From contig CAIWXX010000008.1 of assembly GCA_903916735.1 (NCBI GenBank), positions 62,001 through 126,000 of the forward strand: a stretch of 64,000 nt of DNA, in the 5' to 3' direction. The stretch comes from an uncultured Acidobacteriota bacterium. Lineage in GTDB: Bacteria > Acidobacteriota > CAIWXX01. Positions 18,622 through 29,751 of the stretch are shown here, piece by piece; positions within the stretch are counted from its first letter, which is position 1; each line of letters begins with the position of its first letter. The notes beneath the pieces are model-generated. The model was given only the letters and a program-made list of their open reading frames with translations, did no database searches and was not told the DNA's origin. The translations under genes and the position numbers were made by a program.

Positions 18622-18650
18622 TTGTGACCGATGGCGAGGTACCATATAAT
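18622..18650 (+). promoter_or_regulatory. Promoter of the ten-gene AAA/VWA/radical SAM operon
   Basis: TTGTGA (18622-18627) and a consensus TATAAT (18645-18650) are spaced by exactly 17 bases. Transcription would start near 18657, 24 bases before the ATG at 18681, leaving room for the GGAG ribosome-binding site. No other good promoter was noticed before 29751. Confidence 0.7.
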
Positions 18651-18680
18651 TCCGATCTCCCCTTCTCAAGTGGAGTTTAT

Positions 18681-20264
18681 ATGAAACCCCTGAAACTTTT
18701 TCAACAATTATCGCAGCCTCCCACTAATCCGCACACACAGCCGGCGCCTCAGAAGTTTGATGTCGCCGACTTGTATGAGGGTCCTGCGAGCGAAAGAGCC
18801 TTTGCGGATGATGGCGGCCTGCCGCTCGATGAGAAGCTCCGCCAAGCCTACTTCTGGATTGTCAATCATGCGATCATCAGTCCGCATTATGACATTGAAT
18901 ACCATGATGGTCCGAGTCAGAGTTACACATTCGGCGATACCAAGGCCAAGCTGAATCTGCCATCAGCACAGAGTTATTCCAGCTTTGTTCTGATGCCTCT
19001 CTTAAATTTTGCCGTGCGCCGGCGATGCCTTCTCATCGGCGGCCCTGGACGCGGCAAAACCTCCAGCGCTGTTCTCATGGGTGTTCTTGCCGGATATTCC
19101 ATTAAGGATGTGAGGCGTGCCATGCAGCATGGTCAGCCTCAAATGACTATTTCCGATCTCCTGGGCAATCCCCTCCCCGCTGATCTCATCAACGCGCAAA
19201 AAATGGAGGACATAACAATCTCGTGGAGGAAATGGCTCAGCATGCGCGTGCGGATTATCGACGAGTACAATCGGATTCCAACCCGTACACAATCGGCCCT
19301 TCTTACGGTCATGTCCGATAACTATGCGGAAATCCTCGATCACATCTATGAATGTCCGGAAGCAGCCTGGTATTTGACGGCGAACGATGATGCCGGCGGG
19401 GGAACCTATCATGTGATTGAAGCGCTACGCGACCGCATTGACATCGTCGTTGTTGCTCTGCATTTCAATACGCGCTTTCTGAACAACCTGTTGATACGGA
19501 TCGAAGAGGGAGTCCGCCCCGAAGAGGTTGTCCCGCCGCAGATTGTTTTCACCGAGGCGGAAAGCGAACGGATGTACAAAGAGGTTATGGGAATCGAGTT
19601 TCCGCCCGAACTGAGGCGTCGCCTTGAGTTCTTCGCCAGCCAATTCGAATTTTGTGAACCAGCCGCGGATCAGCTGGAATATAAGACCAAAGACACCGCC
19701 AAGCTGGCGAGCATCGATCTGCATGCCCTTTTCGCTCAAGAGACCGGCAAAGATCGACTCAAAGATATCGGCAGCCTGACAAGGAACGGGCTTTCAGTAC
19801 GCTCCTTGATGACCGTCATAACATTCGCAAAGGCTCTTGCCTACTTTCGCGGTAACGGCGAAGTAGGCATCGAAGACCTGCGTCAGATCATCCCGTTTGT
19901 CCTGCACGACAAACTGACGCCCGATCTGGAAGCACCTTGGTTCGAAGCTCCGGGCAACGCAGTATTTCGGATCGATCGTATCGGCTGGATCAGGCGACTC
20001 TTTGATCTGGCGTGTTCGGAATATGATCGACTGAATCTTGACAAGGACGACCCTGTCGGAGAACTCGACAAGCAATTCAACAGCGGGCTGGAAGGCGTCA
20101 GCGCGTCGGAGGTGCGGACGAGACTCGCAAAGATCGAGCGGCTGTTGACCGAGTGGAGCAAAGGGCGGAAACTATATGGACACATCTTTGACGACCTGCT
20201 CAAACTCAAATACCTGCACCAACGATACACCAATTACTTGATGTGGCTCGAATGGAAAGCTTGA
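18681..20264 (+). CDS. MoxR-like AAA ATPase of the AAA/VWA/radical SAM operon
   Basis: 527 residues. Walker A GGPGRGKT at 120-127, Walker B RIIDEYNRIP near 191-200 and sensor 1 WYLTANDD identify a MoxR-type AAA+ ATPase. The first 110 residues are an extra N-terminal domain and the last 150 form a helical region not typical of short MoxR proteins (about 330 residues). MoxR ATPases usually act as chaperones working with a VWA protein that binds the client; such a protein is encoded two genes downstream. The start at 18681 is chosen for GGAG 5 bases upstream and because the promoter places the transcript start after the earlier in-frame ATG at 18624. It overlaps the next gene by 13 bases. Confidence 0.88.
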   Translation: MKPLKLFQQLSQPPTNPHTQPAPQKFDVADLYEGPASERAFADDGGLPLDEKLRQAYFWIVNHAIISPHYDIEYHDGPSQSYTFGDTKAKLNLPSAQSYSSFVLMPLLNFAVRRRCLLIGGPGRGKTSSAVLMGVLAGYSIKDVRRAMQHGQPQMTISDLLGNPLPADLINAQKMEDITISWRKWLSMRVRIIDEYNRIPTRTQSALLTVMSDNYAEILDHIYECPEAAWYLTANDDAGGGTYHVIEALRDRIDIVVVALHFNTRFLNNLLIRIEEGVRPEEVVPPQIVFTEAESERMYKEVMGIEFPPELRRRLEFFASQFEFCEPAADQLEYKTKDTAKLASIDLHALFAQETGKDRLKDIGSLTRNGLSVRSLMTVITFAKALAYFRGNGEVGIEDLRQIIPFVLHDKLTPDLEAPWFEAPGNAVFRIDRIGWIRRLFDLACSEYDRLNLDKDDPVGELDKQFNSGLEGVSASEVRTRLAKIERLLTEWSKGRKLYGHIFDDLLKLKYLHQRYTNYLMWLEWKA

Positions 20265-21289
20265 TATCCGGCGCCTTCGCCAAGATACTCGAAGCCAATC
20301 GTCATTCATTCAATGTCCGATTTGCCGAGACACGTCATCAACACCCATCAGTCGATCCGGCAGCCTTCCGTGAACTTCTCTGCTCCACCATCGCTCCCAT
20401 CGTGGACGCAGTGAACAGTGTCTCTCCAGAGAGAGCTGAAGAGGTCGCTCAGATTCTCTATGACATGTCTCTCGACCTGCTGAGCCGGAATCTGCTTGGA
20501 CAAAAATCCCGCCAACCTGCCATCGCCGAAGGCTGGCGTAAACTGTACCCTCAAATCCCCCGATTCATCGCCGCTTCGCCGCAACGCACATTCACCTCGA
20601 TCACAAATGCGCTCTATCATCTTTCCGTGACCCCCGGCGCACGACCTCATGAATGGACGGACAACATGTCTCTTCTTTCTGCTGTATGCGTGGATGTAGA
20701 TTCATGGCTGCAAGCCGGGCAGATCGCAGCATGGCGAGCAGGGCTGGCGCACTATCGCAGGGGCGCACTCAATCTCTGTCGGAAGTTGGATCCCCCAGTC
20801 GCATATGTGGCACTTGGCATACCGGACAGTGCGGCTGGATCAGCCATTGATGAGGTCGTCACACGATTGGCTGCTGATCCATGGCTCTTGCCGGGACTCG
20901 CAGCGAGAAAGCCCGGCCGGAAAAATCTGACTATTGTCGCTCGTGCCGGCACTTTTCGAGGGTTAGGAGGACTGTTCGTGTCGACGCCAACCGTCACTGC
21001 CACCGGCGAGGATTTCCTTATCATAGAAGGGGACTCCAAATGGCTGCTCACCGCTGACATATTTGGAGCAACATGGCATCACGGCCAAGGCACGACTGAA
21101 TCCAAGACTCAAAGCCCGTTCAGCATTGATCAGACAGGCATTGTCAAATTTGAAAAATATCAACAAACCTTCCCGGAACTGACCGGCTTGAACAGCTTCG
21201 CGACCAACACGACAACACTCGCCGTCACCACACCTCTGTCTTTTTCTGTGTACATGGTTGCGCTTGTGGAGGAGGGAGGATCGACTTGA
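20252..21289 (+). CDS. Unknown protein linked to the MoxR-like ATPase
   Basis: 345 residues, no family recognised. The first 200 residues look alpha-helical (for example ERAEEVAQILYDMSLDLLSRNLLG). The C-terminal 130 look beta-rich (LTIVARAG, LFVSTPTVTATGEDFLIIEG). There is no signal peptide or membrane segment, so it is probably cytoplasmic. The ATG at 20252 overlaps the ATPase gene by 13 bases (a GTG at 20243 is possible), implying coupled translation and a physical partnership. In MoxR-VWA loci the third gene often encodes an adaptor; that is only an analogy here. A 105-base gap follows before the protease-VWA gene. Confidence 0.75.
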   Translation: MESLISGAFAKILEANRHSFNVRFAETRHQHPSVDPAAFRELLCSTIAPIVDAVNSVSPERAEEVAQILYDMSLDLLSRNLLGQKSRQPAIAEGWRKLYPQIPRFIAASPQRTFTSITNALYHLSVTPGARPHEWTDNMSLLSAVCVDVDSWLQAGQIAAWRAGLAHYRRGALNLCRKLDPPVAYVALGIPDSAAGSAIDEVVTRLAADPWLLPGLAARKPGRKNLTIVARAGTFRGLGGLFVSTPTVTATGEDFLIIEGDSKWLLTADIFGATWHHGQGTTESKTQSPFSIDQTGIVKFEKYQQTFPELTGLNSFATNTTTLAVTTPLSFSVYMVALVEEGGST

Positions 21290-21394
21290 ATGCGCGGTTG
21301 TATAGGTGTGAGGAGGTTCACGTCCGAACTGACAAGTCACGCATTTGACAGATGAGCCGTAGAAATCTGGGAGAACTGACAACTGGAAACTCTC

Positions 21395-23155
21395 ATGATG
21401 GAAAATCTACAAGATCTTCGCCAGATCTGGATGAAGAAATGGCCGGAAGCACTGGCACTCTGGAGTAAATTCACGCGTTTGCGGCCTCCGCTCTGGTGTC
21501 ATACACAGGATGATGCTGAGAAAGAGGGACTCGCCGGCAGTTTCGCGATGATTCGTCTGCAAGATCACGCGATCGTCATCAGCCTGCCTCTCATTCGCAA
21601 ATTTCATATTGAGCATTTTTCACTCGAGATCTTAGCACATGAGATCGGCCATCACGTTTTTTGCCCGGCGGATTTGACCGATAACGCTCGAGTGATTGCG
21701 CGTATGCGCTGGGCGTTGCCGACCAAGGAATATCTGGCAGGATTCATCTCCAACATTTATTCTGATCTGCTCATCAACGATCATCTCCAGCGCAGTGCCG
21801 GCCTGAAAATGGCCGATATTTATCGAATACTCGCTGGGGATTCCGCTGATCGCATGTGGACCTTCTACATGCGCATCTGCGAAATTCTCTGGAGCATTGA
21901 AAAAGAAAAACTTGCGAAGGGCGGGATCAAGGCTCAGATGGAAGGAGATGCACAATTAGGCGCACGACTGATCCGCTCATATGCCCGGGAGTGGATGGAA
22001 GGCGCCGGGCGTTTCGCGGCACTCTGCCTGCCCTACCTGCTCGATGACAATGCCCACGGAATTCAGAAAATCTTGCATGCATGGCGTGACACGGAACAAG
22101 CTGGATCCGGCGCCGTGCCAGACGGCTTAACCGAGATAGAAGAAGGTGAGCGCGAGGGGGCTGTTCACCCATCGCAGGATCCGGACCTGGCTGAACTCGA
22201 TGATCCCGAAGAGCAAGGAGATGTCGTCGAAAAATCTATGCCCCGACAAAAAAAATCACCCGGTGGCGCCCGCGGACAGCATCGCGAGCCGTTTCAATAT
22301 GGAGAAATCTTAAGGAGTCTCGGTCTGAATCTCAACGATCATGAAATTGCGGTTCGCTACTATAAAGAGCGAGCCGCGCCATTGCTCGTGCCTTTTCCGA
22401 GCCGCACTGTATTTGAATCCACCGAGCCGCTCCCTGAAGGTCTCGAACCGTGGGACATCGGATCACCTCTTGAGAGTGTCGATTGGATGGAAAGCGTTCT
22501 GTTGAGCCCGCGCGTCATCCCCGGAATGACCACGGTGCAACGGGTGTGGGGAACTATGGATGGCACTCAGCCTGAAAAGCTTCCACTCGACCTTGATCTC
22601 TACGTTGACTGCTCGGGATCGATGCCGAATCCGCAAGTGACCATTTCGTACCTTGCCCTCGCGGGCGCGATCATTGCCCTGTCGGCACTGCGAGCCGGCG
22701 CTCGAGTGCAGGCGACGCTCTGGAGCGGCGCACATCAGTTCGACACCACCGGCGGCTTTATCCGCGACGCGCACAAAGTTCTGGAAATCCTGACGGGTTA
22801 TTTGGGTGATGGGACGGCTTTTCCGATTCATATGCTCCGCGATACCTATTCGAATCGAAAACAACACGATCGCCCGGCGCACATCCTCATCATCTCAGAT
22901 AGTGGAGTAATAACAATGTTCGATCGGGATGAGCTCAATAATAGCGGCTGGGATATTGCCCGGATTGCATTGAGCAAAGCGCGGGGAGGCGGAACGATGG
23001 TTTTGAATCTGCCGACAACATGGGGGGGAAATAAGGAACTTGCCCGGGCACATAAGGAAGGCTGGCAGATCAGTGTCGTTCGAACATGGGAAGAGCTTGA
23101 AGAATTCGCCCGACAATTCAGTCAACTGAAATATTCCGAGCAGGAACCGGCATGA
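21395..23155 (+). CDS. Fused zinc metallopeptidase-like and VWA-domain protein
   Basis: 586 residues. The N-terminal domain carries a zinc-peptidase active site, AHEIGHH, with H82, E83 and H86. The middle (about 240-300) is an acidic, disordered linker (EIEEGEREG, DDPEEQGD). The C-terminal VWA domain has the metal-ion-dependent adhesion motif DCSGS with D405, S407 and S409. This organisation resembles the DUF2201 group of putative metal-dependent peptidases, whose VWA domains are found with MoxR ATPases. A plausible role is that the ATPase remodels a client presented by the VWA domain, with or without cleavage by the peptidase domain. The next gene starts inside its stop codon (ATGA). Confidence 0.85.
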   Translation: MMENLQDLRQIWMKKWPEALALWSKFTRLRPPLWCHTQDDAEKEGLAGSFAMIRLQDHAIVISLPLIRKFHIEHFSLEILAHEIGHHVFCPADLTDNARVIARMRWALPTKEYLAGFISNIYSDLLINDHLQRSAGLKMADIYRILAGDSADRMWTFYMRICEILWSIEKEKLAKGGIKAQMEGDAQLGARLIRSYAREWMEGAGRFAALCLPYLLDDNAHGIQKILHAWRDTEQAGSGAVPDGLTEIEEGEREGAVHPSQDPDLAELDDPEEQGDVVEKSMPRQKKSPGGARGQHREPFQYGEILRSLGLNLNDHEIAVRYYKERAAPLLVPFPSRTVFESTEPLPEGLEPWDIGSPLESVDWMESVLLSPRVIPGMTTVQRVWGTMDGTQPEKLPLDLDLYVDCSGSMPNPQVTISYLALAGAIIALSALRAGARVQATLWSGAHQFDTTGGFIRDAHKVLEILTGYLGDGTAFPIHMLRDTYSNRKQHDRPAHILIISDSGVITMFDRDELNNSGWDIARIALSKARGGGTMVLNLPTTWGGNKELARAHKEGWQISVVRTWEELEEFARQFSQLKYSEQEPA

Positions 23156-23739
23156 AGATGGAAGGCCCTCAGTTGGAAATTCTGACAAGGCGAGTGGCCG
23201 AATGCCCTGTCGATTTCCTGGCCGAGCCGCGCATCGGAGCAGCCGGATCCATTCCTGTTGCCGCAATCGTATCGGATCTCATCCGCGATCTTGGAGGCGA
23301 TCCACTCACACTCCGGCAGTCGACGGGCTTTTCCAAAGGAGACGCGAAAATAGGTCGCAATCATCTGCGTTTGGTGCTCATCACTTGCTGGCTCTTTCAT
23401 GATCCTTGGTTCCTCAATCGAAAGGAGTGTGCCAATTTACTTTATCTTTTTCTGACCGGTCCATTAACAGACCTCTCGGCAACGACAGCCGCGGAAAAAT
23501 TCGTCTCGGAACCGGATCGCCGCGAGGAGCTCGTCCGTTTCTGCCTCAAGGAGCTCGACCTGAGGCCTGCGGGGGAAACCATCGCTCAGGCACAGGATCG
23601 ACTGGCGACACTGAGCACAGCTGAGCGACGAAGGGTCATTCGCGCTGCTCGTGAGGCGGAGGAACGCGCAAGGGCGATCCGTGAAGCAATGGTACGTCGT
23701 GCTGCCGATGAAGCCGCCGCCAAGGCATCAAGAGAGTGA
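23152..23739 (+). CDS. Unknown 195-residue protein, first copy of the duplicated cassette
   Basis: The N-terminus is strongly shared with the protein at 26229-26819: EGPQLEILTRR, AECPVDFL, PRIG and IPVAAIVSDLIRDL. A second shared block is PDRREELVRFCLKEL with LRPAGE and AQAQDRL. The last 45 residues are a charged, alanine-rich helix likely to form a coiled coil (AAREAEERARAIREAM). There is no signal peptide, membrane helix or catalytic motif that I recognise. Its ATG overlaps the stop of the protease-VWA gene by four bases. By eye the two copies are somewhat over half identical. It may be an adaptor or carrier for the ligase encoded after it. Confidence 0.8.
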   Translation: MKMEGPQLEILTRRVAECPVDFLAEPRIGAAGSIPVAAIVSDLIRDLGGDPLTLRQSTGFSKGDAKIGRNHLRLVLITCWLFHDPWFLNRKECANLLYLFLTGPLTDLSATTAAEKFVSEPDRREELVRFCLKELDLRPAGETIAQAQDRLATLSTAERRRVIRAAREAEERARAIREAMVRRAADEAAAKASRE

Positions 23740-23838
23740 GATGAAAAAATGATCCTTCGCGGCAAACAGCTCTCGATTGTGGACAGCAGCACGGAATGCG
23801 CTATAAGTTGATGTGAAATCCGGAACGAGGAGCCGAGT

Positions 23839-25185
23839 GTGGTTGAAACATTAAGCGAAACCGAGCGATTTCCTCTTCTCACTGAAGAAGGCCGGCGCCT
23901 TCTCCGCCGGCTTCATGAGAATGAATTCGCTCCTCGTTATAACCACCACTGCGGCGATCGGCTAACGATTGAGGGATTACGGCGTGTCAGAGATTTTGAA
24001 ATCGAACTGAAAAGCTCAGCTCAAGATCGGCACCCCGGCGATATTCCATCGTGGCTGTTGGACTTCACAAAAACATGCTGCCGGGATGTGCCACATTACC
24101 GAGGATATAAAGCAAATCCTGCCGATTTTTTTTCGATTCCAACCTGTGACCGAAGTGATCTCAGCCGCGAACCATGGTCTTTCGTGCCCGATACACAGGA
24201 CCTCGATGACCTGATCGTCTATTGCACTTCGGGAACCACCGGGCATCCCTTGGATGTTCTTTCGCATCCGGTTGTCTCTTCCATGTATCTGCCGTTGCTT
24301 CGCACTGCAGCTGCAACTTATGGCGTGGCCTTGGAAGGGCGACAAGGGCATGTTGCAATCGTTCTTATCTGCTTCCAAAAAAGCACTCTCACATATGCTG
24401 CGATTTCTGCCTATCTCGATCAAGCCGGTCTCGTGAAGATCAATCTGAACCCTGCCGACTGGCGCCATCCTGCGGATCGGGCGCGCTTTCTTGATGCCTG
24501 CCGGCCGGAGATATATACCGGCGATCCGATATCATTTATGGAACTGGCTTCCCTGGCAATGCAATCCCGACCGAAAGCCCTTCTCTCGACCGCCATGACA
24601 TTGCCGCCAAGACTTCAAAAGTTTCTGGAACACCATTTTCAATGCCCCGTCATCGACATATACTCAATGAACGAAGCCGGGCCTGTTGCTGTCAGAGACG
24701 GCACCGGCCATGTGCCGCTCCAACGGCGCCTTTACATTGAAATTCTCGATAAAGATGGCTTGTCATGCCCTCCGGGTGAACGTGGCGAAATAACTCTCAG
24801 CGGTGGTTTCAATCCGTACCTGCCGCTATTGCGATATCGTACCGGGGATTGGGCTCGCCTTGAGTATCGAGGAACACTTCCGGTGCTCAAGGATCTCGAA
24901 GGGCGTGCTCCTGTCCTTTTTCGTGATGCTCGCGGGAATGTGGTAAACAGCATCGACATTTCCTCCGCATTAAAACCTCTCGCATTGGTTCGATTTGAGC
25001 TTCACCAGAATGCGGACGGATCTCTCCGCCTGAGAATGCAGAAAGGCGAAACAACTCCTGATCAGGTGCGCCATGCCATCCTTTCGCTGTTCGGAGATGA
25101 CCAAAAGGTCGACGTGGAAGGAATGGAATCTCCATGCGACTCTCCATTCAAAGTGATTCAATACTCCAGTGATTATGCCTTCTGA
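23839..25185 (+). CDS. PaaK-like adenylate-forming enzyme, first copy
   Basis: 448 residues, the length of phenylacetate-CoA ligase and CapK/F390-synthetase-type enzymes. AMP-binding motifs are complete: CTSGTTGHP near 129-137 (phosphate loop), YSMNEAG at 275-281, and YRTGDWA at 333-339. A lysine in SPFKVIQY near 438 matches the position of the C-terminal catalytic lysine. It should activate a carboxylate with ATP. Whether CoA, a protein thiol or an amine accepts the acyl group cannot be told. The GTG start has GAGGAG 6 bases upstream. The radical SAM gene begins inside its 3' end. The paralogue at 26822-28162 is similar over the full length. Confidence 0.85.
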   Translation: MVETLSETERFPLLTEEGRRLLRRLHENEFAPRYNHHCGDRLTIEGLRRVRDFEIELKSSAQDRHPGDIPSWLLDFTKTCCRDVPHYRGYKANPADFFSIPTCDRSDLSREPWSFVPDTQDLDDLIVYCTSGTTGHPLDVLSHPVVSSMYLPLLRTAAATYGVALEGRQGHVAIVLICFQKSTLTYAAISAYLDQAGLVKINLNPADWRHPADRARFLDACRPEIYTGDPISFMELASLAMQSRPKALLSTAMTLPPRLQKFLEHHFQCPVIDIYSMNEAGPVAVRDGTGHVPLQRRLYIEILDKDGLSCPPGERGEITLSGGFNPYLPLLRYRTGDWARLEYRGTLPVLKDLEGRAPVLFRDARGNVVNSIDISSALKPLALVRFELHQNADGSLRLRMQKGETTPDQVRHAILSLFGDDQKVDVEGMESPCDSPFKVIQYSSDYAF

Positions 25186-26221
25186 CAGATTCCGGGGAAA
25201 GAAACTGGTTATCGCTTGGCGCGTGACCGAAGCGTGCAATCTCAGTTGTCATTTCTGCGGCTATAGCTCGATAATGGAGCGGACACGCACGTATGCGTCC
25301 TCGGATTTGGCTCTTGAGTTCGGCCAGCTGCTGAGAGAATACCGCCGGCGACAAGGCCGCGATGTGCTCGTCAGCTGGATCGGCGGCGAGCCTTTTCTCT
25401 GGCCACCGCTCATGGACGTCTCCCATCATTTCAAACACCAATTCAAGCTTCATGTCTCGGTATCAACCAACGGTATAATGCCGACGTCGCAAGGACATCG
25501 CGAACGCGTCATTGAGGACTTCGATGAAATGACCTTCAGCATTGACGGCCGTGCCGAATTTCATGACGCTGTACGAAACGGTTCCGGCATCTATGAAAAG
25601 GTCCGATCCACGATCATCCGCCTCAGCGAACTCAAATCGAAGAGAGGCATCGGGCCGCTCATCAGAGTCAACACAATTCTCATGCATGACAATGTTCATC
25701 ATTTTGAACGATTGTGCCGAACAGTCGCGAAGTGGGGCGTTGAGGAACTAACCTTTAACACACTTGGCGGGCAGGACAGGCCCGAGTTTTTCCCGGCCAA
25801 CACATTGACATACGAAGACGCTGTCAGTTTTCAGCAGGAACTTCCTCGAATCAGCAAACAGATGGCCTCACTGGGGCTCAGAATTCATGGAAGTCGAAAA
25901 TACCTCGACAAAATTACGGCCTCAGCGATGGGGATGAAGACACCGATTCACAATTGCGCTCCATGCCGGAATTTTTTATTTATTGATGTCAACGGCTTTT
26001 TAGGTCCCTGCAGTGGTCTTGCCAATTCCGGCAGCGGCATCTCGGTCAGGGAGATCAAATTCCCGGAAGATCTCCAGGCGCTCAGCCCGAAGTTCAATTA
26101 TGATCGCAGCAAGAAAATGCCAGTCGCTTGCGGCGATTGCCCCAGTACCGAATTTTTCGGAAAATTTGCTGATCCGATCGAGAATCCGGAGGCAATGCTC
26201 CAATGCGTCTCAATTCAATAA
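25175..26221 (+). CDS. Radical SAM enzyme with SPASM-like C-terminus
   Basis: 348 residues. The 4Fe-4S/SAM motif CNLSCHFC places cysteines at 21, 25 and 28; GGEPFL near 66 is the usual second motif. The C-terminal part has further cysteines (CAPCRNFLF, LGPCSGL, then CGDC and a last Cys near 343), as in SPASM/twitch domains that hold auxiliary clusters. SPASM enzymes mostly modify peptides or proteins; the substrate here is unknown. It starts within the 3' end of the first PaaK-like gene (11-base overlap) and is followed after 7 bases by the second cassette. That position suggests it works with both copies. Confidence 0.88.
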   Translation: MPSDRFRGKKLVIAWRVTEACNLSCHFCGYSSIMERTRTYASSDLALEFGQLLREYRRRQGRDVLVSWIGGEPFLWPPLMDVSHHFKHQFKLHVSVSTNGIMPTSQGHRERVIEDFDEMTFSIDGRAEFHDAVRNGSGIYEKVRSTIIRLSELKSKRGIGPLIRVNTILMHDNVHHFERLCRTVAKWGVEELTFNTLGGQDRPEFFPANTLTYEDAVSFQQELPRISKQMASLGLRIHGSRKYLDKITASAMGMKTPIHNCAPCRNFLFIDVNGFLGPCSGLANSGSGISVREIKFPEDLQALSPKFNYDRSKKMPVACGDCPSTEFFGKFADPIENPEAMLQCVSIQ

Positions 26222-26228
26222 GGCTCCC

Positions 26229-26819
26229 ATGAAAGCCGAAGGTCCGCAGTTGGAAATGCTCACCCGGCGCCTGGCAGAATGCCCAACGGATTTCTTGTTG
26301 GATCCACGCATAGGCTCATCCGGGTTGATCCCGGTCGCAGCCGTTGTCTCTGATCTGATCCGTGACCTCAGCGGGAAGACTCCGACAGCGCAAGAGATGG
26401 CGACTTTTCAAAAGAGCGGGGATCGCAAGCTGTACAATTATTTAAGCACCGTCCTTGTTGTTTGCTGGCTTCTCAACGATCCGTGGTTTCGGAGCCGAAG
26501 CCAATTTGCACCAGCAGCGCTCAGATTTCTATCAAATGAACTCATTGAGATAGCGTCAACGACTCCCGTGAGGAAATTCACAAGTGATCCGGATCGTCGC
26601 GAGGAGCTGGTTCGCCGGTGCCTTAAGGAGATTGGCCTGCGCCCTTCGGGCGAGAGCATCGTACAAGCTCAGGACCGCCTGACCACACTCAACACGATTG
26701 AGCGGCAACAGGTCATTCGAGCAGCTCGTGAGGCCGAAGCGCGCGCTCAGAAAATACGTCAAGAAATGGCGGCAAAAAGAGCGGCGGCGGAATCCGATGC
26801 GAAGGCCATGAGAGAATAA
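26229..26819 (+). CDS. Unknown 196-residue protein, second copy of the duplicated cassette
   Basis: Paralogue of the protein at 23152-23739. It keeps the N-terminal block EGPQLEMLTRRLAECPTDFL, the segment DPWF, the block DPDRREELVRRCLKE with LRPSGES, and the charged alanine-rich C-terminal helix. The middle (about 50-110) has diverged most. The gene lies 7 bases after the radical SAM gene and 2 bases before the second PaaK-like gene. Retention of both copies suggests each serves its own ligase. Function unknown. Confidence 0.8.
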   Translation: MKAEGPQLEMLTRRLAECPTDFLLDPRIGSSGLIPVAAVVSDLIRDLSGKTPTAQEMATFQKSGDRKLYNYLSTVLVVCWLLNDPWFRSRSQFAPAALRFLSNELIEIASTTPVRKFTSDPDRREELVRRCLKEIGLRPSGESIVQAQDRLTTLNTIERQQVIRAAREAEARAQKIRQEMAAKRAAAESDAKAMRE

Positions 26820-26821
26820 CA

Positions 26822-28162
26822 ATGGCCGGCGGCTTTCATAATAAAAATCTCTTTCCTCTTCTGTCTGAAGAGGGTCACCGGCTGCTGCAGTGGCTGCATG
26901 AACACAAATACGCGCCGCACTATACGCACCCAGGCTGTGATCGGTTGACAGCGGAAGGGCTTGAAAAGGTCCGGGCTTTTGAAGCCGAATTGGATTCACC
27001 TCAGCAGAGCAGGCGAAATGGTGAAATGCCGGACTGGCTGAAGGAGCATGTCGAGACCTGTTACCGCGATGTCCCGTTTTATCGACGCTCCGGATCAGCG
27101 CCATCGAATTTTACATCAATCCCGACCACCAATCGGCGTGATCTCAGTCGGGAGCCATGGGCCTTCGTACCCGACTCGCAGCCTCTAAACGATCTCGTCA
27201 TCTATCAGACATCCGGCACGACCGGGCATCCACTGGATGTCCTCACCCACCCGACTCCTCTCGCCATGTATCTTCCTCTCCTGCGCACAGCATTGGCGAT
27301 GCATGGTGTGAAACTGGAAGGCCACTGCGGGCGCGTCTCAATCATTCTCGTGTGTTTTCAAAAAAGCACATACACATATGCTTCGATTTCGCCGGTACTC
27401 AACCAGGCCGGTCTCGTCAAGATCAACCTCAACCCGGCCGATTGGCGCGACATCAGTCATATGGCCAAATTTCTCGATGCATGCGATCCGGAAATCTACA
27501 CTGGGGATCCTATCTCATTCGCTGAATTGTCGCGCCTGCCACTGCAAACGCGCCCAAAGGCCATCGTCTCGACCGCGATGACACTTCTTCCGGGGCGGCG
27601 ACACCGTCTTGAACAGCATTTTGGATGTCCAGTCATTGACATCTATTCGATGAACGAGACGGGCCCGATTGCCGTGTGGCTCAGAGAAGCGCATGTCGTG
27701 CTACAGAAACGCTTATATATAGAGGTGCTCGATAGAGACGGTTTCTCATGCCCATCGGGTGTCCACGGAGAAGTCACTGTCACTGGCGGGTTCAACCCCT
27801 TTTTGCCGCTCCTGAAATATCGAACAGGTGATTGGGCACGTCTGGCTTTTCATGGAACTCAGGTGCTGCTGGAAGGCCTGGAAGGACGACCTCCGGTCAT
27901 CTTCCGAGGGCGGCGAGGCCAGCCCATCAATAACATCGACGTATCAACCGTATTGAAACCACTGCTCCTAGTCCAATATTCGCTGCATCAAAATAGAGAC
28001 GATTCACTGCATCTGCGAGTACATGGGAGGATTCAGGATCAGAATCGCCTCCGGGATATTATTATTTCACTCTTCGGTGAAGGGCAGAGATTATTCGTTG
28101 AAGAAGTCGATTCCTTACCGGCCGCCGGGAAGATTCTCCAATATTCGCGGGATGATGAATAG
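26822..28162 (+). CDS. PaaK-like adenylate-forming enzyme, second copy
   Basis: 446 residues, paralogue of 23839-25185. It keeps the motifs QTSGTTGHP near 128-136, YSMNETG near 276-282, YRTGDWA near 335-341, and a C-terminal lysine in AAGKILQY near 437. Long stretches are identical between the copies (for example LVKINLNPADWR and PEIYTGDPISF), so the active sites are probably similar. Differences around the segment after YSMNE (AVRDG versus AVWLRE) could alter substrate choice. It is followed after 9 bases by pnuC. The substrate is unknown; the name PaaK-like reflects fold only. Confidence 0.85.
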   Translation: MAGGFHNKNLFPLLSEEGHRLLQWLHEHKYAPHYTHPGCDRLTAEGLEKVRAFEAELDSPQQSRRNGEMPDWLKEHVETCYRDVPFYRRSGSAPSNFTSIPTTNRRDLSREPWAFVPDSQPLNDLVIYQTSGTTGHPLDVLTHPTPLAMYLPLLRTALAMHGVKLEGHCGRVSIILVCFQKSTYTYASISPVLNQAGLVKINLNPADWRDISHMAKFLDACDPEIYTGDPISFAELSRLPLQTRPKAIVSTAMTLLPGRRHRLEQHFGCPVIDIYSMNETGPIAVWLREAHVVLQKRLYIEVLDRDGFSCPSGVHGEVTVTGGFNPFLPLLKYRTGDWARLAFHGTQVLLEGLEGRPPVIFRGRRGQPINNIDVSTVLKPLLLVQYSLHQNRDDSLHLRVHGRIQDQNRLRDIIISLFGEGQRLFVEEVDSLPAAGKILQYSRDDE

Positions 28163-28171
28163 GGCCACTGT

Positions 28172-28762
28172 ATGATGTTTGATATTTCGCCAATGAAATG
28201 GCTGGAAATCATTGCCGTCATTCTCGCCATCCTCTGCGTCTGGCAGACAGTGAAGGAGAACATCTGGTGTTGGATCACCGGCAGCGTGAGCAACCTCCTT
28301 TTCTGTTATGCCTTTTTCACAGCCAGGCTGTATTCAGATATGGCTCTTCAACTCGTCTATGTTCTGCTCAATGCCTATGGCTGGTACCAATGGCTCCATG
28401 GCGGAAAGCGGCAGTCGTCTCTCTCCGTGACCATGACAACAATTCGAACGTGGATTGTCTTGGCGCTTGTCGCGTTAATTTTAACATCGGCACTGGGCCA
28501 ATGGCTGTCATTGCACACCAATACGGACGTGCCCTACTGGGATGCAACGACGACTGTCATGAGCCTGGTTGCTCAATTTATGCTGGCCAAGAAATTGATC
28601 GAGAACTGGTGGATATGGATCAGTGTCAACGTCATGTACATCGGCATTTATTACTATAAGATGCTGTATCTCACGAGTGGGCTGCAGATCATCTTCATCG
28701 CTCTTTCGATCATGGGGTATCTGGAATGGAAAAAATCACTGCGCGCGGCCGAAGAGGCATAA
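28172..28762 (+). CDS. pnuC: Nicotinamide riboside transporter PnuC
   Basis: 196 residues with about seven transmembrane helices. It takes up nicotinamide riboside by facilitated diffusion, trapped by later phosphorylation. Typical features are WCWITGSVSNLLF near 31 and NAYGWYQW near 67, the latter corresponding to the substrate-pore motif, and a C-terminal aromatic segment. It lies 9 bases after the second PaaK-like gene and its end overlaps nadR by 37 bases, pairing importer with kinase/adenylyltransferase. Confidence 0.93.
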   Translation: MMFDISPMKWLEIIAVILAILCVWQTVKENIWCWITGSVSNLLFCYAFFTARLYSDMALQLVYVLLNAYGWYQWLHGGKRQSSLSVTMTTIRTWIVLALVALILTSALGQWLSLHTNTDVPYWDATTTVMSLVAQFMLAKKLIENWWIWISVNVMYIGIYYYKMLYLTSGLQIIFIALSIMGYLEWKKSLRAAEEA

Positions 28763-29751
28763 TCATCGGCAAGTTCATGCCGCCGCACAATGGACATAGG
28801 CATCTGATCCAATTCGCACAGAGCCACATCGATCATCTGACAGTCATCATTTTCACGAAATCTCAGGAACCGATTCCTGGCCATCTGCGTGTTCAATGGA
28901 TGCGGGAGATCTTCCCGAACATTGAGCTCATCCACGTGACGGATGAGCATCCAGTGGATTTTCGAGACTCAACCATCTGGAGCCTCTGGATTGATTCGAT
29001 CCGCAGGGTTTGTCCGCAGACTCCTGATATCGTCTTCTCATCTGAAGACTACGGCGACGAGCTAGCTGCGCGGCTCGGAGCTCGGCATATCCTCGTTGAT
29101 AAGGCTCGATCGAGTGTCCCCGTATCGAGCAGCTTGATTCGTAACCATCCATTCGATTACTGGCATTTCCTGCCCTCCTGCGTACGACCGTATTTTCTCA
29201 AGAGGGTATGTCTTCTCGGCGCCGAATCCACCGGCAAAACAACGCTGGCGCAGGCCTTGGCGAAGCACTTTTCAACGGTATGGGTGCCCGAGTATGCCCG
29301 TGAATACCTGGAAAGCAAAAAGGGCTTTTGCGAGCTGATGGATATTATCCCGATTGCTGAGGGGCAGGTGGCTTTGGAAGACTCACTCGCTCAGCACGCA
29401 AATCGCCTGCTGATTTGCGACACGAACCTCATTGCGACAATGGTGTGGAGTGAACACTATTTCAGCTTCTGCCCGGCGGAAATTCTCGATATGGTCAATG
29501 AACGAAAATATGATTTCTATTTGGTGCCGGATATTGATCTTCCATGGATCGATGATGGATTGCGCGACTCACCAGGGCATCGTGATTGGTTTCATAACCG
29601 ATTCTTGAGCGAAGTACAGCATCGGGAGGTTCCTTACGCCATCCTTTCGGGTGCCTTCCAAAAACGATTGGATACGGCCATACAGACAATTAATGCTATT
29701 CTCAAAGTGAACCCTCAATCATCTGCCATGGCGAACGCCGCAGAGTTCTGA
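28726..29751 (+). CDS. nadR: NadR-type NMN adenylyltransferase / ribosylnicotinamide kinase
   Basis: 341 residues. The N-terminal nucleotidyltransferase domain has GKFMPPHNGH at 15-24 and the SSSLIR motif near 145. The C-terminal kinase domain has Walker A GAESTGKTT near 163. Together they phosphorylate imported nicotinamide riboside and adenylate NMN to NAD. The DNA-binding helix-turn-helix found at the N-terminus of enterobacterial NadR is absent, so this form is enzymatic only. The ATG lies within pnuC. It is the last gene of the ten-gene operon. The operon ends without a clear terminator about 90 bases before the cysK remnant. Confidence 0.93.
   Translation: MEKITARGRRGIIIGKFMPPHNGHRHLIQFAQSHIDHLTVIIFTKSQEPIPGHLRVQWMREIFPNIELIHVTDEHPVDFRDSTIWSLWIDSIRRVCPQTPDIVFSSEDYGDELAARLGARHILVDKARSSVPVSSSLIRNHPFDYWHFLPSCVRPYFLKRVCLLGAESTGKTTLAQALAKHFSTVWVPEYAREYLESKKGFCELMDIIPIAEGQVALEDSLAQHANRLLICDTNLIATMVWSEHYFSFCPAEILDMVNERKYDFYLVPDIDLPWIDDGLRDSPGHRDWFHNRFLSEVQHREVPYAILSGAFQKRLDTAIQTINAILKVNPQSSAMANAAEF

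Follow-up and report, generated by a model that had tools for sequence, protein, structure and literature searches.

Does the run of ten adjoining genes in a 64,000-nucleotide stretch of DNA from an uncultured Acidobacteriota bacterium (the window) encode one system, and what might that system do? The sequence-only reading of this DNA described ten plus-strand genes with short gaps behind a promoter, TTGTGA-17-TATAAT; the genes, their short gaps and the promoter-like site are all present. The genes, which overlap or are closely spaced, occupy 18681-29751 of the + strand (Table 1), with the widest intergenic gap, 105 bases, at the B/C boundary. D1-E1 and D2-E2 form a duplicated pair flanking the radical SAM gene, with about 59% identity for both proteins.

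The promoter-like site scores 10/12, joint top among the 14 such sites in the region, with shuffled sequences averaging 8.4; judged from its letters, it is a plausible but not proven promoter. The AAA gene A most likely starts at ATG 18681 rather than at the mechanically called GTG 18624, because the latter would overlap the promoter and a matching start is found in relatives. Comparison of upstream regions for a regulator site revealed merely a short stretch common to close relatives: TGCAATAATTTC is conserved 5' of the AAA gene in Janthinobacterium loci (L030, L034, L045 and others), where the remaining upstream region differs, and it is possibly a promoter or regulator site.

Table 1. Features of the ten-gene operon in the window
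Feature	Position	Strand	Basis
Promoter-like site TTGTGA-17-TATAAT	18622..18650	+	Consensus match only
A: MoxR-like AAA+ ATPase, 527 aa	18681..20264	+	AAA_3 and AAA_lid_2 above cut-off
B: 348 aa, no family	20243..21289	+	No Pfam family; AlphaFold model
C: HExxH metallopeptidase-like domain and vWA domain, 586 aa	21395..23155	+	HEIGHH, MIDAS; VWA_2 weak
D1: helical protein, 195 aa, no family	23152..23739	+	No Pfam family; AlphaFold model
E1: PaaK-like adenylate-forming enzyme, 448 aa	23839..25185	+	PF00501 above cut-off; adenylation motifs intact
R1 (F): radical SAM enzyme	25169..26221	+	PF04055 above cut-off; CxxxCxxC and further invariant cysteines
D2: second D copy	26229..26819	+	59% identity to D1
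E2: second E copy	26822..28162	+	59% identity to E1; motifs intact by inspection
PnuC: nicotinamide riboside importer	28172..28762	+	TIGR01528 99.6 bits, cut-off 42.45
NadR: nicotinamide riboside kinase / NMN adenylyltransferase	28726..29751	+	TIGR01526 253.2 bits; motifs intact

Distribution and joint inheritance of the cassette

Using C as the query against about 85,000 genomes, we found at least 80 loci in at least 10 phyla, the phylum ranks being read from the titles of the records, of which many are metagenome bins. The matches listed include loci of Pseudomonadota, Acidobacteriota, Planctomycetota, Verrucomicrobiota, Spirochaetota, Chloroflexota, Actinomycetota, Myxococcota, Cyanobacteriota/Melainabacteria, Nitrospinota and Bacteroidota. 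Annotation by envelopes located B in 76 of the 80 listed loci, A in 70, D in 69, E in 62, NadR in 37 and PnuC in 17. The prevailing gene order in these loci is A-B-C-(R)-D-E-(PnuC)-NadR, and its recurrence in many phyla places the arrangement far beyond chance; no other conserved neighbour of the cassette recurs. The expectation that the ATPase, peptidase-vWA, ligase and radical SAM genes would stay together in distant phyla holds for A-B-C-D-E, but not for the radical SAM gene, which is present in only 21 of the 80 loci.

E is absent from 18 of the listed loci, 6 of which are on short contigs or run out close to the cassette. For each of the other 12, a strong E is encoded at another place in the genome (best matches 1e-75 to 1e-176); in several of them the relocated gene sits beside D, the radical SAM gene or NadR, and the detached blocks are intact as R1-D-E, D-E, D-E-NadR or E-NadR-PnuC. 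C occurs in 4 of 60 genomes (that of the window plus 59 relatives) and full-length E (>500 bits) in the same 4, with the next best ligase at 111 bits. Across the window's phylum (396 genomes), C and E are both found in exactly the same 8, an overlap expected once in 1.4e16 by random draw if shared ancestry is ignored, and in 4 of these 8 the two genes are unlinked, lying on different contigs or 33 kb apart. In the genus of Janthinobacterium, too, the two genes occur in one identical set of genomes (32 of 40), as they do among 151 genomes from its class (2, the centre genome included). For 29 non-redundant loci, the matrices of pairwise identity of A, B, C, D and E correlated with one another at r 0.76-0.89; the highest value among 500 permutations was 0.40.

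Such co-occurrence and correlated divergence show joint inheritance, not contact. They also bear on whether the locus is two or three unrelated operons (AAA/vWA, ligase/radical SAM and NAD salvage) that happen to adjoin, as the separation of the A-B-C and D-E parts in some genomes might suggest. This explanation is scarcely credible, with C and E co-occurring perfectly even when apart, gene order conserved across phyla and the genes diverging in step, and co-occurrence and divergence in step led us to reject it for A-B-C-D-E. These five genes almost certainly constitute one system, from which NadR is possibly partly separate. The proposal that the AAA/vWA-peptidase part and the ligase part belong together is thus borne out by their presence together in distant phyla and their perfect co-occurrence where unlinked; the opposite pattern, relatives in which the two parts never meet, is not what we observed, the parts being together across phyla. 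Since the AAA+ machine is always inherited with the activating enzyme and with B and D, they very likely form one working machine. The A-B-C-D-E core is obligate, and two of its proteins, B and D, are without a known fold.

The sequence-only reading knew of no named pathway with this composition, and we likewise found no match in family libraries or the open-licence PMC literature, nor any description of the cassette there or in PADLOC. The cassette is undescribed yet widespread among bacteria.

The AAA+ ATPase, B and the vWA protein

Analysis of A, the most conserved part of the cassette, revealed Walker A/B, sensor (sensor 1) and Arg-finger residues that are invariant among relatives; its sole PDB relative is 2r44. 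In C, the HEIGHH motif and N120/D124/N128 are invariant among relatives, as are the MIDAS residues D405-S407-S409 and D502 in 46 sequences, while the Pfam assignment of its vWA domain is weak (VWA_2, best 1.6e-4 among members). A and C have the sequence features of a MoxR/vWA chaperone pair, namely AAA+ motifs and an adjoining vWA domain with MIDAS DxSxS.

B belongs to no Pfam family and has no convincing match by PDB sequence search. Its AlphaFold model (pLDDT 95.4, pTM 0.92) consists of a helical N-terminal part and a beta-rich C-terminal part, and Foldseek searches of the model against PDB and a viral library returned zero matches at E 0.001.

The putative adenylating pair D-E

D is likewise without a Pfam family or anything convincing by PDB sequence, and its AlphaFold model (pLDDT 95.2, pTM 0.85) gave zero Foldseek matches in PDB at E 0.001; B and D are thus both without a solved relative by fold. 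D has four invariant acidic residues, D42, E125, E126 and E142, the last of which sits between two helices in the AlphaFold model and is a candidate MIDAS ligand.

E falls within the ANL superfamily as a PaaK-like enzyme, with the A3, A5 and A7 motifs and the A10 lysine. The match to PF00501 (AMP-binding; cut-off 29.9) is 40.1 bits for E1 and 28.6 bits, just below, for E2. G132, E279, D337 and R356 are invariant, and the A10 lysine is present in 58 of 64 sequences. The A8 segment reads GRxPV in E instead of the GRxDD of PaaK, so that the full reaction of E is unsure and its second half-reaction may be changed. Both E copies score far below the PaaK equivalog TIGR02155 (25.0 and 32.5 bits, cut-off 646) and the DVU_1553 family AMP-dependent CoA ligase NF045666 (69.0 and 73.9 bits, cut-off 300). 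In the window, L013 and L020, D and E have been duplicated together, and this duplication, together with its relocation as a unit, suggests that D and E form a complex.

Radical SAM genes

R1 matches PF04055 (Radical_SAM) with 58.2 bits (cut-off 29.5) and contains CxxxCxxC, its invariant cysteines being C23, C27, C30, C263, C281, C321 and C324. A search for a named SPASM/twitch subfamily gave TIGR04053 as the best NCBIfam match, at 65.4 bits (cut-off 395), and the relatives of R1 are likewise below cut-off. In a set of 49 genomes, most of them without R1 at the locus, the only copies of R1 were those of the window and of two detached R1-(D)-E blocks, and R1 is therefore optional. In L015, L020, L028, L061, L079 and L085, R1 is replaced within the cassette by different radical SAM genes, R2b and/or R2a; R2a, R2b and R1 all fail to reach the cut-off of any named NCBIfam subfamily. 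The radical SAM gene is thus optional yet cassette-specific. In L015, L028, L061 and L085, R2b and R2a, which do not resemble R1, adjoin E as a pair; R2a and R2b match each other's neighbours, not any named family.

NAD salvage genes

The ten genes counted from the sequence included PnuC and NadR, which are indeed present; they had been given no role, yet they recur in the cassette. PnuC scores above its equivalog cut-off (Table 1). NadR is below that of TIGR01526 (341.15), with both domains and nearly the whole protein covered, and the cassette copies have invariant K16, H21, H24, R139, G170 and K171 with intact HxGH adenylyltransferase and P-loop kinase motifs.

Of the phylum's 53 good genomes, the 4 with C all have full-length NadR, versus 2 of the 49 without C (chance ~5e-5, shared ancestry ignored), and the NadR identity matrix correlates with those of the cassette proteins at r 0.78-0.90 over 15 loci. 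Where NadR is absent from the locus of C-bearing genomes (n=27), it is found elsewhere in 19 and was not found anywhere in 8, making it a frequent, not strict, cassette partner. In L033, L066, L070, L081 and L087, NadR or PnuC precedes A or sits on the opposite strand, and this varied placement suggests repeated association with the cassette. PnuC and NadR belong to the cassette, in which they recur and with which NadR diverges in step.

A proposed mechanism

In NorQ/NorD, the vWA domain docks in the AAA+ pore, the MIDAS binds an acidic residue of the client, and the client is remodelled through ATP hydrolysis (PMC9976466). We consider it quite possible, though by no means assured, that A and C form a MoxR-vWA remodelling machine whose client is a D-E adenylating complex in an NAD-consuming pathway. 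A, as the MoxR AAA+ ring, C, with its vWA and metallopeptidase-like domains, and B, as a third dedicated subunit, would together make an ATP-driven machine of the MoxR-vWA type acting on the D-E pair. E, with its PaaK fold, would turn a carboxylate into an adenylate, with D as its obligate partner or adaptor, and the MIDAS of C would probably grip D through a conserved acidic residue, for which E142 is the candidate. In some cassettes the radical SAM enzyme would act further on the substrate or on the product. Nicotinamide riboside would be turned into NAD by NadR, which PnuC often accompanies as importer, and both may be in the cassette because the pathway uses up NAD or NMN.

The gene order, the co-occurrence and divergence in step, the intact AAA, MIDAS, HExxH, adenylation and NadR motifs and the movement and duplication of D-E as a unit support this mechanism; the physical contacts, the role of D-E as client and the consumption of NAD are what we infer. 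The division of labour proposed earlier, in which one part of the operon activates or modifies a substrate and the other matures, loads or degrades a protein component, would also agree with the motifs. With NadR not found in 8 of the 27 C-bearing genomes that lack it at the locus, and the radical SAM gene missing from most cassettes, NAD use and radical chemistry would not be strictly required.

The client could also be a protein encoded elsewhere. If that protein were a metalloenzyme, the cassette would be a maturation machine like CoxD/CoxE or NorQ/NorD, with D, E and the radical SAM enzyme making or delivering part of the cofactor. The MoxR-vWA pairs already characterized act by inserting metals or by remodelling enzymes (PMC9976466, PMC3471820), and E is distantly related to the DVU_1553 family, but none of the locus groups has a candidate client gene linked to its cassette, and we find this explanation doubtful. 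It is distinctly improbable, if conceivable, that the cassette encodes a new kind of pathway with NAD or NMN as a building block, the product of which A-B-C loads onto or into a protein. E would then adenylate a carboxylate, a further step would fall to the radical SAM enzyme or its replacements, NadR/PnuC would supply the pyridine nucleotide, and A-B-C would act as a chelatase-like delivery machine for an undescribed NAD-derived cofactor or protein modification.

Comparison with NorQ/NorD, CbbQ/CbbO, CoxD/CoxE and RavA/ViaA revealed the same combination of a MoxR-type AAA+ protein and a vWA partner with an intact MIDAS. The cassette differs in the N-terminal HExxH domain of its vWA protein, in the intervening B, and in the inheritance of the pair with D, E and usually NadR rather than with a known client enzyme. 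E has its fold and adenylation motifs in common with PaaK-like ligases and the DVU_1553 family, whereas it lies far below the family cut-offs, has an altered A8 segment, and is accompanied by its obligate partner D and by MoxR-vWA genes. Nicotinamide riboside salvage by NadR/PnuC resembles the cassette in its importer and bifunctional kinase/adenylyltransferase, with intact motifs, but the cassette versions are built into, and diverge with, the MoxR-vWA-ligase cassette. In the cassette, a machine of known kind (MoxR-vWA) has a partner set that is new and constant.

MoxR-vWA machines are widespread and few of their clients are known. Under the mechanism that we favour, perfect co-occurrence singles out E, a dedicated adenylating enzyme, and its partner D as the probable client of this machine. 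The regular association with NAD-salvage genes hints at chemistry in which NAD may serve as a material, and two cassette proteins have no solved relative by fold. Because the cassette is found in culturable Janthinobacterium, Massilia, Stenotrophomonas and Sphingomonas, its role is directly testable.

Possible transfer between phyla and relation to conflict systems

In the tree of C (a quick tree with moderate support), the window copy is nearest to that of the Chloroflexota locus L013 and one further bacterium, and the same-family relative G001 stands apart from it, among Myxococcota and others. L013 has the window order A-B-C-D-E-R1-D-E-PnuC-NadR, with additional genes inserted. This proximity and the common order point to transfer of the whole cassette between phyla.

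The sparse distribution and apparent transfer between phyla would suit a role in conflict or stress response. The cassette would then be one more class of system centred on MoxR-vWA: A and C would set a threshold, B would sense, D-E (with the radical SAM enzyme) would provide an effector molecule, and NadR/PnuC would refill NAD. MoxR-vWA conflict systems do exist, some with a radical SAM enzyme (PMC7159879), and a Nuc_deoxyrib_tr (TIR-like superfamily) gene lies between A and B in two Planctomycetota loci. We nevertheless regard such a role as rather unlikely, if far from negligible: there is no PADLOC match, the plasmids, phages and viral contigs searched carry no copies, extra neighbours do not recur, the components are constant instead of hypervariable, and 32 of the 40 species genomes in one genus have the cassette. 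Identity with a known anti-phage defence system was rejected, PADLOC giving nothing beyond generic similarity to radical SAM (viperin-like) proteins and a single weak AAA match, as was cargo of a plasmid, phage or virus, for which the search matched nothing.

The ternary conflict systems (Kaur et al. 2020; PMC7159879) resemble the cassette in combining MoxR, vWA and a dedicated third protein, sometimes with a radical SAM gene. The four defining third components (VMAP, iSTAND, double FtsH and the vWA-fused beta-propeller) are all lacking from the cassette, which has constant ligase and NAD-salvage partners in place of varied effectors. By Pfam, neither B nor D falls in such a family; C carries an HExxH domain and not a propeller, and none of the third components recurs among cassette neighbours; we rejected the identification.

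Several loci carry further genes within the cassette. In L013, apparent oxidoreductase and pyridoxamine-phosphate-oxidase-like genes are inserted between cassette genes (L013:8631-9974 and L013:14621-15304), and in L014 a YhcG-type (DUF1016) PDDEXK nuclease gene lies at the B/C boundary (L014:8846-9955). The extra gene between A and B in Planctomycetota (L028:7888-8901, L062:7907-8929) matches Nuc_deoxyrib_tr in its C-terminal part, a possible nucleotide- or NAD-processing domain.
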